Of a stretch of 64,000 nt of DNA, positions 9,180 to 55,330 are shown one piece after another. Source of the stretch: Stenotrophomonas maltophilia (GTDB lineage: Bacteria; Pseudomonadota; Gammaproteobacteria; Xanthomonadales; Xanthomonadaceae). The translations under genes were made by a program, and so were the position numbers. The stretch covers positions 784,001 to 848,000 of the forward strand of contig NZ_CP015612.1 of assembly GCF_002138415.1 (NCBI RefSeq), given 5' to 3'. The notes under the pieces are model-generated. The model was not told where the DNA came from, made no database searches, and saw only the letters and a program-made list of their open reading frames with translations. Each line of letters begins with the position of its first letter. Within the stretch, counting starts at the first letter, position 1.

Positions 9180-9283
9180 GGTGGGGCGGTGTGGGTGGGC
9201 AGGACACGCCGTAAACCCGTCCCTGGGGGCTCGATGGCGCCATCCATGGCGCCAACGGTCCTGCCCACCCACACCGCCCCACC
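9180..9283 (+). repeat. Nested palindromic element, copy 1 (forward)
   Basis: Outer arms 9180-9205 and 9258-9283 are perfectly complementary over 26 bp. The 52-nt loop starts ACGCCGTAAACCCGTCCCTG and contains an inner 9-bp hairpin, TGGCGCCAT-CC-ATGGCGCCA. Copy 2 at 9576 is the same element inverted; copies 3 and 4 are near 38.3-38.7 kb. Outer and inner arms differ between copies yet stay self-complementary. Confidence 0.85.
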
Positions 9284-9350
9284 TCCGACAGTTTCCCGGT
9301 GACGGTGGGCAAGAGCATTGGGTTACTGACGAACTGTTGGAAAACAAAAA

Positions 9351-9372
9351 GGACGCGGCCTTCGCCGCGTCC
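9351..9372. terminator. Bidirectional intrinsic terminator between msrA and tal
   Basis: The stem GGACGCGGC / GCCGCGTCC (9 bp, loop CTTC) is preceded by AAAACAAAAA and followed by TTCTTGTTT. It therefore has a U-tract in both directions, the better one for transcripts arriving from tal on the minus strand. Apart from the two palindromic elements, this hairpin and a SMAG copy, I see nothing in the 666-bp gap 9100-9765. Confidence 0.75.
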
Positions 9373-9575
9373 TTCTTGTTTGGTCCTGCAGTGCTTTCCG
9401 TAGAGCGGAAGGCAGCGGCAGGAGCCGCTGCCAACGTCGCTTGCGACGGCCCGGAGGGTGCCGGTCAGGACGACCGGCATAGCCATGCTCGGCTGCGAGC
9501 AAGCGAAGCGCGCGACCCGCTGTTGCTCTTCTTTCTTTCTTCCGTGGCGGGCGGCCACCGGAAACTGTCAGAGGG

Positions 9576-9673
9576 CGGGCGGGTTGGGTTCGCGGGAGTG
9601 TCCGCGGCATGGATGCCGCGGCCAAGCCTCCAGGGACGGATTCACGGCGTCTCCCGCGAACCCAACCCGCCCG
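9576..9673 (-). repeat. Nested palindromic element, copy 2 (inverted)
   Basis: Outer arms 9576-9598 and 9651-9673 pair over 23 bp. The loop, read on the minus strand, starts ACGCCGTGAATCCGTCCCTG and holds the inner hairpin CCGCGGCAT-CC-ATGCCGCGG. The loop is 52 nt, as in copy 1, but both stems have different sequences. Confidence 0.85.
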
Positions 9674-9700
9674 ACCCAGCGCGGCTTTTGCTTTAGCAGT

Positions 9701-19537: not shown

Positions 19538-20205
19538 TCGAACTGCTGGACCTGCAACAGACTCTGTGCGCCTTTGCGGCCTGCAACGATGACGATGCGG
19601 TGTACGCCTCCTTCGGTTGGGTGCACGCCACCGGGGGCGATCTGCTGCAGGCGCGTTTCTGGTTGCCGGGCGATGAAGACGCGGCGTTCGACGACGACGG
19701 TGATGTCCCCGCCGAAGCGGGCGCGCTGGGCCTGTCCACCTTTCTTGAACCGGCGACCTTCGCCGACGTGCTCGACGTGCAGAAGCGGCAGCAGCCGCTG
19801 TCCACGCTGGCCGACCATGCACGGGCGCTGGCGTACTACGCCGAGTACGACGCATTCCAGCAGGTCGAGGGCATCGACGAGGCCCTGGGCGAAGCGGGTG
19901 CTGAGGAACAAGCGGCGGCACGCGAGGCCGGCATTGGTGCGGGCATCTTCGCGTCGTTCGATCTGGTGCTGGTCGCGTGTCCGGAGGCGCAGGTCAAGGC
20001 AGTGGCCCAGCGCGTGGCGCATCTGCTGGAGATTCCGGTGGGCGAAGCGCTGCCGCGCTGTCGTGGGTTGCCGCTGATGCTGGGCGAAGCACTGGACCGC
20101 AAGCGTGCGCAGGCGATCAAGGATGACTTCGCCGCCATTGGCGCAACGTTGCAGGTGCGCGCTTTCAAGCCGTTCCCGTGGATGGATGCGCCCGTATTGC
20201 GGTAG
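19534..20205 (+). CDS. Conserved hypothetical protein coupled to the MFS exporter
   Basis: A 223-residue soluble acidic protein I do not recognise. It has no signal peptide or membrane helix. The last third (LPRCRGLPLMLGEALDRK then AIKDDFAAIGATLQV) looks like the C-terminal domain of ribosomal protein L7/L12, a strand-helix pattern ending in GAxxxV; this is only an eye match. Its ATG overlaps the exporter stop, so translation is coupled. The TAG stop is the GTAG of a SMAG repeat. Confidence 0.65.
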   Translation: MIELLDLQQTLCAFAACNDDDAVYASFGWVHATGGDLLQARFWLPGDEDAAFDDDGDVPAEAGALGLSTFLEPATFADVLDVQKRQQPLSTLADHARALAYYAEYDAFQQVEGIDEALGEAGAEEQAAAREAGIGAGIFASFDLVLVACPEAQVKAVAQRVAHLLEIPVGEALPRCRGLPLMLGEALDRKRAQAIKDDFAAIGATLQVRAFKPFPWMDAPVLR

Positions 20206-20274
20206 TGCCGGCCGCTGGCCGGCAACCCCAGGTCGGTTGGATCATTGCAGTTGCCGGCCAGCGGCCGGCACTAC
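20202..20274 (+). repeat. Inverted SMAG/REP pair between convergent genes
   Basis: GTAGTGCCGGCCGCTGGCCG at 20202 and its mirror ending GGCACTAC at 20274 fill the space between two convergent genes. Bases 20203-20205 of the first copy are the stop codon of the upstream gene. Confidence 0.85.
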
Positions 20275-20288
20275 CAGGCCTGGGTAAA

Positions 20289-38237: not shown

Positions 38238-38313
38238 TGGGTTGGTCGGCAGGGCCTGCGGCCCTGCACCTGCCGGATCAACGTCAACGTCAAAAGCGTG
38301 CATTCTGTGGGAT

Positions 38314-38427
38314 GGCGGGGTGGGTCCGGTTGCGGGGGACGCCGTAAACCCGTCCCTGAAGTGACCCCTGGGGGCTTGGCCGCGGCATCCATGCCGCGGA
38401 CACCCCCGCAACCGGACCCACCCCGCC
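38314..38427 (+). repeat. Nested palindromic element, copy 3 (forward)
   Basis: Outer arms 38314-38338 and 38403-38427 pair perfectly over 25 bp. The loop begins ACGCCGTAAACCCGTCCCTG as in copy 1. It carries a 12-nt insertion (AAGTGACCCCTG), then the inner hairpin CCGCGGCAT-CC-ATGCCGCGG. The upstream flank CAACGTCAACGTCAAAAGC also resembles the flank of copy 1. Confidence 0.85.
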
Positions 38428-38451
38428 TTCGACAGATCTCCGCGATCTGCA

Positions 38452-38542
38452 GTAGATCCACGCCATGCGTGGATGAATCTCCATCGGAATCGAATATTTC
38501 GAACTGGAATCGAAAAGCATCCACGCATGGCGTGGATCTACT
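38452..38542 (+). repeat. Inverted SMAG/REP pair (GTAGATCCACG type)
   Basis: GTAGATCCACGCCATGCGTG at 38452 and the mirror CCACGCATGGCGTGGATCTAC ending at 38542 (21 bases, given here by position) enclose about 43 nt. They sit between copies 3 and 4 of the nested element. The 533-bp gap 38238-38770 shows nothing besides these repeats. Confidence 0.8.
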
Positions 38543-38590
38543 GTGTCGACCAAGGTCGACACCCTCCAACAGCCGCAGAAATCTGTCAGG

Positions 38591-38692
38591 GGTGGGGCGG
38601 TGTCGGAGTGCGGGGTGTCAGCGGCATGGATGCGGCTGCCAAGCCTACAGGGACGTACTTGCGGCGTCCCCGCACTCCGGCACCGCCCCACC
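38591..38692 (-). repeat. Nested palindromic element, copy 4 (inverted)
   Basis: Outer arms 38591-38615 and 38668-38692 pair over 25 bp with one T-G wobble. The 52-nt loop read on the minus strand starts ACGCCGCAAGTACGTCCCTG and ends in a CATCCATG-centred inner hairpin with one mismatch. It is the inverted partner of copy 3. Confidence 0.85.
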
Positions 38693-51146: not shown

Positions 51147-51163
51147 CCGCGTGGCCCGCTCTG

Positions 51164-51222
51164 GTAGTCGCCCACCTTGGTGGGCGCGTGGCAGATCAGT
51201 GCCCACCAAGGTGGGCATCTAC
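51164..51222 (+). repeat. Inverted SMAG/REP pair (GCCCACCTTGGTGGGC type)
   Basis: GTAGTCGCCCACCTTGGTGG at 51164 and the mirror GCCCACCAAGGTGGGC ending in CTAC at 51222. Confidence 0.8.
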
Positions 51223-51242
51223 CAGAGCCAGGTTCCCAAACA

Positions 51243-54205: not shown

Positions 54206-55225
54206 ATGCGACGCCTCCATCGCACCCTGCGTGCCCCCTTCGCCTGGCTGGCGCTGCTGGTGTTGACCGTGCCGTTGGCCACCCTTGCGCAGGACCTGCA
54301 TGGCCCGGGCTTCGCCTACTACGAAGCTGGGGATCTCGACGCACCCCGGCCCGGCCCGCGCGCGCCGGCCATGATGTTGATGGGTGGTGGCGAGTGGGTG
54401 CCGGAAGCCTTCCACTGGTGGCTGAAGCAGGCTGGCAATGGCCGCGTGCTGATCCTGCGCGCTTCCGGCAGTGATGAGCTGCAGGACCGCCTGTATCGCG
54501 AGATCGGCGGGACCACCGCAGTGCAGACGCTGGTCTTCGACAGCCGCCGCGGCGCCGACGATCCGGCCGTGCTGCGCGTGGTTGCCGCAGCTGATGCCAT
54601 CTTCATTGCCGGTGGTGACCAGTCGCGCTACATCCGCTTCTGGAAGGGCACTGCGCTCAACCGCGCGCTGAACGCCCATGTGCGCGCCGGCAAGCCGATT
54701 GCCGGTACCAGTGCTGGGCTCGCCATCCTCGGTGGCTATGCCTACGGCGCGATGGACGGCGGCAGCATCACCTCCGCGGGTGCGCTGGCCGATCCGATGG
54801 GCAGCGCGGTGACCATGGACAGTGGCTTCCTGCAGATGCCCTATCTGCAGCGGGTGGTCACCGATACCCACTTCGACAAGCGCGACCGGCTCGGTCGCCT
54901 GATCGTGTTCGTGGCGCGCGCCGCCCAGGACAGCGGTGATCCCGACATCGTCGGCATCGGCGTCGACGAAGACACCGCCCTGTGCGTGGAGCCCGATGGC
55001 CAGGCACAGGTCTACAGTGCTGACGGCGAGGGCAAGGTCTGGGTGGTCAGCCCCGGCCGCGATGCCGACCGCCTGGTTGAGGGCGAGCCATTGCGCTTCC
55101 ATGCCGTTCCGGTGACCGTGGTCGCCAGCGGCAGCCGCATGCGCCTGGACGACTTCCAGGCCGACGCCGACTATCAGGCGGTGGCCGACATCAGCGACGG
55201 CGAGATTGAGTTCACGCTTCGGTAG
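54206..55225 (+). CDS. Exported cyanophycinase-like peptidase (S51 family)
   Basis: A 339-residue protein with a signal peptide (FAWLALLVLTVPLATLAQD). The peptidase-E/cyanophycinase fold follows: MLMGGGEWVPEAF, AIFIAGGDQSRYIRFWKGT, and the nucleophile Ser169 in AGTSAG. Cyanophycinases split multi-L-arginyl-poly-L-aspartate into beta-Asp-Arg dipeptides. Export points to extracellular or periplasmic polymer use, not a stored reserve. ATG 54206 follows GGGAGA. The TAG stop comes from a SMAG repeat. Confidence 0.85.
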   Translation: MRRLHRTLRAPFAWLALLVLTVPLATLAQDLHGPGFAYYEAGDLDAPRPGPRAPAMMLMGGGEWVPEAFHWWLKQAGNGRVLILRASGSDELQDRLYREIGGTTAVQTLVFDSRRGADDPAVLRVVAAADAIFIAGGDQSRYIRFWKGTALNRALNAHVRAGKPIAGTSAGLAILGGYAYGAMDGGSITSAGALADPMGSAVTMDSGFLQMPYLQRVVTDTHFDKRDRLGRLIVFVARAAQDSGDPDIVGIGVDEDTALCVEPDGQAQVYSADGEGKVWVVSPGRDADRLVEGEPLRFHAVPVTVVASGSRMRLDDFQADADYQAVADISDGEIEFTLR

Positions 55226-55291
55226 TGCCGGCCGCTGGCCGGCAACTCACCTTCCCTGATGCGACCGGTGCCGGCCAGCGGCCGGCACTAC
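55222..55291 (+). repeat. Inverted SMAG/REP pair between cyanophycinase and isoaspartyl peptidase
   Basis: GTAGTGCCGGCCGCTGGCCG at 55222 and its mirror ending GGCACTAC at 55291. Bases 55223-55225 are the stop codon of the upstream gene, so the repeat lies inside the presumed operon. Confidence 0.85.
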
Positions 55292-55330
55292 CCGTGCAAT
55301 CCTTCACTACACCTGCTGGAGACGTACCCG

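Follow-up and report, generated by a model that had tools for sequence, protein, structure and literature searches.

The window analyzed here is a 64,000-nt stretch of Stenotrophomonas maltophilia contig NZ_CP015612.1 (positions 784,001 to 848,000). Within it, msrA (peptide methionine sulfoxide reductase, PF01625; 8413–9099, plus strand) converges with a transaldolase gene (PF00923; 9766–10722, minus strand), and the interval between these genes holds two nested palindromes of about 104 nt that face each other, one downstream of each gene. Element 1 occupies 9180–9283 on the plus strand and consists of an outer stem (9180–9205/9258–9283; 26 bp, 100% complementary, with a 52-nt loop) and a three-way-junction core (9206–9257). 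Element 2 lies at 9573–9676 on the minus strand, and its outer stem (9573–9598/9651–9676) is likewise 26 bp long with a 52-nt loop and is 96% complementary. The initial annotation, made from the sequence alone, had reported two facing palindromes after msrA with perfect outer stems of 23–26 bp; the palindromes are real. The loop cores of the two elements open with ACGCCGTAAA and ACGCCGTGAA, and each contains a 9-bp inner hairpin around CC in CATCCATG.

A second pair of the same family is flanked by a thioredoxin-like gene on one side and a PPK2 gene on the other. Element 3 (38311–38430, plus strand) carries a 12-nt insertion within hairpin 1 of its core (about 38359–38370) and for this reason has a loop of 64 nt, and element 4 (38591–38692, minus strand), which faces it, has a variant core with the TAC/GTA form of hairpin 1. 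R1, a covariance model of 23 copies, scores elements 1 to 4 at 101, 99.3, 90.5 and 85.7 bits, respectively. With up to three mismatches allowed, the core pattern occurs three times in the window against 0.06 expected occurrences.

The 52-nt ‘loop’ is itself folded. The inner 9-bp hairpin that the initial annotation had described is present, and a second, shorter hairpin that it had missed pairs GCC with GGC and then YCC with GGR around RTCCNT. In the gapless alignment of 23 copies, this hairpin 1 has a GTRAA bulge between GCC/GGC and YCC/GGR, with TAC/GTA as an alternative, and hairpin 2 ends in ATCCAT; two hairpins and an outer stem together make a three-way junction. Hairpin 1 of element 1, with its 5-nt bulge, spans 9206–9230 and is supported by covariation and by its loop columns. 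GCC at 9208–9210 pairs with GGC at 9228–9230 and CCC at 9216–9218 with GGG at 9225–9227, around a hexaloop at 9219–9224 whose opposite strand fits ANGGAY. Hairpin 2, the inner hairpin, spans 9232–9257 and has the hexaloop ATCCAT at 9242–9247 (ATGGAT on the opposite strand). The hexaloops of element 2 are at 9632–9637 and 9609–9614. Both hairpins of an element present CNTCCNTG loops, which read CANGGANG on the opposite strand. RNA folding z-scores for elements 1 and 2 on both strands range from −8.05 to −11.07.

The spacer of the first pair (9284–9572) carries an inverted motif, GACAGTTTCC at 9287–9296 and GGAAACTGTC at 9560–9569, and by inspection a similar motif also adjoins other copies. A GC hairpin with A-rich and T-rich flanks (9342–9381), seen by inspection in loci L108, L109, L110 and L127 as well, is probably a bidirectional intrinsic terminator serving the convergent genes. 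Several copies of the family (L006, L010, L024 and L031) contain IS-like DNA starting AAGTGACCCCC inside hairpin 1; the 12-nt insertion of element 3 has a similar sequence at the same point, as does L020, and is perhaps a footprint of such DNA. An insert of about 80 nt made up of several small hairpins (TTGCTCG..) recurs by inspection at the tip of hairpin 2 (L009, L015, L023, L025, L032, L033, L109, L271 and L276), as though the element hosted another palindromic one. Other long inverted repeats in the window lie at 2378–2482, 20201–20275, 38450–38543, 51158–51228 and 55221–55292, several of them with a GGTAG foot and resembling SMAG/REP dimers.

Pairing is kept while the paired sequence changes. 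Among the 23 copies, 621 cells of the alignment hold 137 two-sided changes and no one-sided change, 96.6% of cells are paired (3.4% unpaired), and 20 of the 27 pairs are altered on both sides in some copy. Thirty other copies, taken at 29 loci in as many other genomes (L065 belongs to the same genus), gave 256 two-sided versus 2 one-sided changes in 810 cells, with 97.8% paired (2.2% unpaired), and in this set the GCC/GGC helix also varies in step. When the partners were slid by 1–3 columns as a control, at most 19 and 49 two-sided cells were obtained for the 23 and 30 copies, respectively. These counts bear out the earlier suggestion that the arms stay paired through sequence change. Unpaired arm changes elsewhere, which had been named as evidence against it, occur in part: a few mismatches were found in the outer stems of 46 of 74, 42 of 110 and 43 of 73 copies in three sets. 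The 74- and 110-stem sets retain 184 of 198 aligned matches, with odd-length and duplicate matches left out; the former, a ‘foreign’ set, includes L065 and a Stenotrophomonas-like viral contig (L217), and the latter includes copies from relatives outside the genus. At orthologous sites, arms have been exchanged with pairing mostly kept.

Orthologous sites give a direct view of long palindromes changing sequence while staying paired. We searched 18 of 80 collected loci with R1, of which four Stenotrophomonas loci matched and the other 14 had no match. In the msrA–tal region of four named Stenotrophomonas genomes, the elements are in the same places, with seven of the eight expected matches found. 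The eighth (L110, S. maltophilia PC315) is hidden: at the expected start of the second element the contig ends in a long run of G (its last ~60 bases), probably because the palindrome misled the assembly. By inspection, the arms and inner hairpins of these orthologues differ yet stay paired, with the exception of S. geniculata (L109). The first copy of this species has a left arm of one type and a right arm of another and therefore pairs only in its inner part; it contains an 80-nt insert too.

A second locus, that of the copy at 1734610 of the window genome, was matched by its query in all 41 genus genomes. From a set of 30 loci we left out L272, which has no upstream gene, and L283, in which 87 bp of that gene aligned. 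By inspection, 18 of the remaining 28 carry whole, hybrid or collapsed copies (189–467 bp between the aligned parts) and 10 are without the element (16–134 bp), so that alignment reveals presence and absence at one orthologous locus. The left element is mostly lost in L264, L268, L274, L275 and L277, with L264 retaining a perfect 22-nt palindrome of arm ends, and L263, L266, L269 and L273 look like hybrids of two facing copies. The forms seen at this locus look like products of palindrome-driven slippage, template switching and conversion.

The initial annotation had proposed a covariance-model search, and R1 finds at least 149 copies in the window genome. Among 41 genomes drawn as relatives, 23 had matches, comprising 20 of the 25 of the genus (the window genome included) and 3 of the 16 others, and the number of copies per Stenotrophomonas genome ranges from 0 to at least 117. 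Of 369 genomes sampled from the class Gammaproteobacteria, 69 had matches, spread over many families, as did 29 of 398 genomes of a phylum sample, all 29 of which belong to the same class. Copies per genome were counted up to 13 in the class sample, 117 among the relatives and 12 in the phylum sample, so that counts at these values stand for at least that many. Judged from these searches, the Stenotrophomonas form is an abundant subfamily with a high and very variable copy number. A 58-nt core consensus gave no match at E 0.01 in annotated plasmid, phage and E. coli collections, and the exact core pattern matched two viral contigs. Because an excerpt of PMC2847712 lists 3 YPAL matches for E. 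coli, the blank obtained there with a single consensus is not proof of absence.

The elements can be assigned, with good support from sequence comparison, to a Stenotrophomonas subfamily of the Yersinia YPAL/RU-2 dispersed palindromic repeat. A 168-nt Yersinia RU-2 sequence was printed by Delihas and equated with YPAL (PMC2759123, Table 1b, as excerpted). Its reverse complement includes the window core, with an alignment score of 45 where the best of 500 shuffles reached 20. On alignment, the core (ACGCCGTAAA..TCC..GGCTCGA..GCGCCATCC.TGGCGC) and the three-way-junction structure with both hairpins are common to the two. Copies dispersed in intergenic regions are described for YPAL/RU-2 in the accessible parts of PMC2759123 and PMC2229807, and dispersal near gene 3′ ends is a feature that the Stenotrophomonas elements have as well, with at least 149 copies and 54 of 70 intergenic ones in sense. 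In addition, viral contig L218 contains an RU-2 copy with 3 differences over 167 aligned nt, which R1 scores at 59.2 bits. This copy is inserted at a terminator-like hairpin and has GGCCACACAGGTGGCC on both flanks, in agreement with the statement, in the available text of a review, that YPAL inserts across or next to dyads and duplicates 3–26 bp of its target (PMC2229807).

Beyond the core the likeness ends. The local alignment with RU-2 covers the core only, and the arms and flanks of the window elements look unrelated to it; the elements are therefore a relative of YPAL and not YPAL itself. Judged by inspection of L218, YPAL has a short, interrupted outer stem, whereas Stenotrophomonas stems are long, near-perfect and variable. 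YPAL is a unit of 167–168 bp with its own flanks and target duplications of 3–26 bp (PMC2229807, in part), whereas Stenotrophomonas copies occur mostly in convergent pairs. The 10 of 28 second-locus sites without the element allowed no clean duplication to be read, and a flank repeat was seen in L218 only.

TwoAYGGAY is a candidate RNA that was originally catalogued from the human gut and from gammaproteobacteria and Clostridiales. In the window genome, the Rfam model of this RNA (RF01731) gave four matches of 36–41 bits, just under its gathering score of 43 (best 41), each on an R1 element and on the opposite strand. In 12 other R1-positive genomes it gave 16 matches in three genomes, 12 of them over the gathering score in 2 of the 12. 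The other 9 of the 12 had no match, so the model covers only part of the family. We examined 15 of these 16 places and all 15 coincide with R1 on the opposite strand; overall, 19 of 20 matches were examined and 19 of 19 lie on R1 elements, opposite strand. By this coincidence TwoAYGGAY is identified as the opposite strand of the same repeat family. The likeness extends to the two hairpins, whose loops read ANGGAY and ATGGAT on the opposite strand; position two of the former is not always Y.

Among sub-threshold Rfam matches of the window, the best E-value belongs to Ysr224 (RF02770; 5e-5, 31.3 bits against a gathering score of 70), a Yersinia sRNA. It is on the same strand and has the core within its consensus, which differs in including Yersinia flanks. 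Rfam matches to microRNAs, far below gathering scores, were dismissed as palindrome artefacts. The view of the initial annotation that no described family fits is thus not supported, since the core is that of YPAL/RU-2 and Rfam TwoAYGGAY detects the opposite strand. It had named a match to a described repeat or Rfam family as counter-evidence, and this holds in part, with no window copy reaching any Rfam gathering score. Among the papers listed in a literature collection from which subscription journals are mostly missing, and in the parts of papers accessible there, we found no link among the names YPAL/RU-2, Ysr224 and TwoAYGGAY and no Stenotrophomonas repeat of this kind linked to them; papers searched for printed core motifs yielded none. 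The present comparison joins a Yersinia mobile repeat (YPAL), a Yersinia sRNA (Ysr224) and TwoAYGGAY into one family that is far wider than Yersinia, given the 69 positive genomes in the class sample of 369. According to the accessible portion of PMC9029176, Ysr224 is among the most abundant sRNAs when repeated instances within a strain are counted, and this listing may partly reflect the repeat.

Copies are positioned non-randomly with respect to genes. In the window genome, all 46 of the neighbor pairs closer than 600 bp among the matches listed are convergent, with a median spacing of 277 bp; close pairs in this genome, so far as these matches go, are only convergent. To count orientation we used 77 of the 149 listed own copies (at least 700 bp of flank) and removed 7 inside a called ORF, with genes called by a crude codon model. 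For the 70 intergenic copies that remained, the upstream gene is in sense in 54 and not in 16 (p 6e-6), and taking one copy per cluster leaves 34 in sense versus 11. Model matches begin a median of 95 nt past the stop codon. These calls indicate a bias toward the sense orientation after gene 3′ ends. In other genomes, a crude test of 67 copies classified 25 as sense and 9 as antisense and left 33 unclear, with the downstream gene directed toward the element in 15, away from it in 23 and unclear in 29. The sense bias may therefore be general, and the convergent setting is not.

The initial annotation had offered a terminator as one possible role. No T-run is found in the 3′ flank of either outer stem, so the defining feature of an intrinsic terminator is absent, and as a general role this suggestion is not supported. 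We also considered whether the elements target terminators, as group IIC introns do, because L071 and L366 directly follow strong terminators. Among 143 copies in other genomes, just 6 had a canonical terminator on the top strand no more than 120 nt upstream (3 had one upstream on the bottom strand, 3 downstream on the top strand and 1 downstream on the bottom strand), and this idea was rejected.

Selection on an RNA hairpin tolerates G·U, and a G·T mismatch on one strand is A·C on the other, so an excess of one mismatch indicates the strand under selection. Internal transition mismatches of the outer stem, read on the top strand, comprise 81 A·C versus 29 G·T in the three sets (33, 28 and 20 versus 16, 4 and 9; pooled p 7e-7 under a slightly laxer filter, third set alone p 0.06), in counts that omit repeated contexts and stem ends and come from copies that are still related. 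Transversion mismatches number 20, 20 and 29 (69 in total). In the window genome, the A·C excess appears in both orientations relative to an origin assumed at coordinate 1 (7:2 and 7:0). The excess of A·C over G·T on the top strand implies that G·U is favored on the bottom, TwoAYGGAY strand. Mutational bias could also be its source, and top-strand transcription should act on the asymmetry in the opposite direction.

Conservation of the two loops was followed across copies with cores of exactly 52 nt. In a wider set of 85 distinct cores (97 copies), the loops read C-N-T-C-C-N-T-G, with variation at N and 99–100% fixation of the twelve consensus letters. For the window genome and relatives (67 distinct cores, also 97 copies), the same letters are 97–100% fixed and the N variation is not seen, because hairpin 2 is almost always ATCCAT. 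All cores were found with R1, which favors the conserved loop letters. The bottom strand of the loops is C-A-N-G-G-A-N-G and thus presents paired hairpin-loop GGA motifs fitting CANGGANG, putative CsrA/RsmA sites; the Rsm-binding consensus is given as 5′-(A/U)CANGGANG(U/A)-3′ in the accessible text of PMC6849547, citing Schubert 2007. Because TwoAYGGAY was earlier matched to a CsrA motif (PMC4333381, in part), the RsmA/CsrA idea is not new for that RNA; what the motif comparison would add is to carry it over to YPAL and to a repeat dispersed through a genome. In the class sample, CsrA (PF02599) is present in 64 of 69 element-bearing versus 249 of 300 other genomes (p 0.04), a weak association confounded by genome completeness. 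Five element-bearing genomes had no CsrA match, G196 at 98% completeness and four at 67–88%.

Taken together, we think it likely that the elements form a YPAL/RU-2-type subfamily with TwoAYGGAY as its opposite strand, that they spread in trans, and that recombination and selection jointly keep their hairpin. Such an element would be non-autonomous and chromosomal, and would depend on an activity supplied in trans. The arms would stay complementary while their sequence changes through palindrome-driven recombination (slippage, template switching, conversion from one copy to another) acting alongside selection that preserves the hairpin. A transcribed copy would give the 3′ flank of a gene a highly stable stem-loop, which by analogy with YPAL might protect the 3′ end and impede read-through of transcripts of the convergent gene. 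Protein recognition would be the role of the two conserved loops, with RsmA/CsrA, acting on the antisense strand, as the best candidate ligand. The ‘mobile palindrome or structured RNA’ of the initial annotation was the right class.

Mobility itself is likely. The Stenotrophomonas copies showed no clean target-site duplication, and the conservation of orthologous positions across species could be read as host function instead. A non-mobile, vertically inherited terminator or 3′UTR stabilizer selected by the host would fit the sense orientation about 95 nt past stop codons, the same placement in four named Stenotrophomonas genomes and the very stable fold. We find this reading unlikely, since one genus contains genomes with 0 to at least 117 copies, 10 of 28 loci are without the element, no T-run follows the stems, the spread over the class is patchy, and the RU-2 copy of L218 is itself inserted at a terminator-like hairpin. 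A relative of SMAG, that is a REP-type element moved by a REP-associated tyrosine transposase, is suggested by a genome rich in SMAG-like palindromic repeats, some of them between pairs, and by the head-to-head dimers that REPs likewise form (PMC3733652, as excerpted). By inspection, however, the stem foot of the elements lacks a GTAG or CGTC tag, and the stems are mostly 20–40 bp long, variable and unrelated between copies, against 5–13 bp for REPs (PMC3733652, same excerpt); their sequence is also unrelated to the GTAG-tagged SMAG repeats. We rejected this identity and hold it very improbable, and the distinction from SMAG drawn in the initial annotation was correct.

Two further readings divide the evidence on pairing and strand. 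Pairing could be maintained purely by DNA processes, namely hairpin-templated repair, template switching and conversion, with no RNA selection. One-sided intermediates (G·U on the top strand) are nearly missing from the core model (0 of 621 and 2 of 810 cells), and the hybrid and collapsed copies at one locus and the L109 copy with two arm types are of the kind expected. A strand-symmetric process, however, predicts neither the asymmetry of A·C over G·T nor the fixed loops, and we regard this reading as possible though doubtful. The functional product could instead be the opposite-strand RNA, its two C[ANGGAN]G hexaloops clamping an RsmA/CsrA dimer, with read-through from the convergent gene yielding a dispersed reservoir of sites. 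The near-complete fixation of loop consensus letters beside varying N positions in 85 cores agrees with this, as do the fit of the loops to the PMC6849547 consensus (TAC/GTA hairpins fit the flanking A/U and U/A too), the implied G·U pairs on the bottom strand (81 versus 29), the distribution of CsrA (64 of 69 versus 249 of 300 genomes, p 0.04) and the prior match of TwoAYGGAY to a CsrA motif (PMC4333381, in the text available). Several points speak against the clamp. In most copies this strand runs antisense to the closest upstream gene; RsmA leaves the conservation of the GTRAA bulge and of GCT unexplained; the 67 cores of the window genome and relatives almost all have ATCCAT in hairpin 2; and all copies were found via R1, which favors these letters, and stem from a small number of active copies. 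Moreover, five element-bearing genomes have no CsrA match in an association confounded by completeness, and the mismatch asymmetry could be mutational, with 69 more mismatches being transversions. We therefore put this proposal forward tentatively.

A broader version combines the preferred trans-mobilized subfamily with the clamp: a spreading gammaproteobacterial repeat would have seeded many chromosomes, some with at least 100 copies, with paired antisense RsmA/CsrA clamps at gene 3′ ends, where read-through from convergent genes would titrate or recruit RsmA/CsrA, and YPAL, Ysr224 and TwoAYGGAY would be parts of this one system. We offer it as speculation that is more probably wrong than right. 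If the loops do bind RsmA/CsrA, the abundant repeats would constitute a previously unrecognized sink for a global regulator.

A transposase or other mobilizer was sought among the ORFs between wide pairs at L100, L101 and L103, and none was found. The same IS3-type element is present at L100:1314–2464 and L101:1365–2515, inside or directly beside an element copy; it has ORFs of 97 and 286 aa, the latter with rve/HTH_21 domains (Pfam, L100 copy only). In another genome (L372:654–1818), an ORF carrying a DUF4357 domain lies inside a convergent pair; by eye, the N-terminal part of this ORF looks GIY-YIG-like and the flanking ORFs look rimO- and cyaY-like. Finally, one genome has a tandem array of six direct element copies spaced every ~227 bp (L371, G597:C1:94432–95644).
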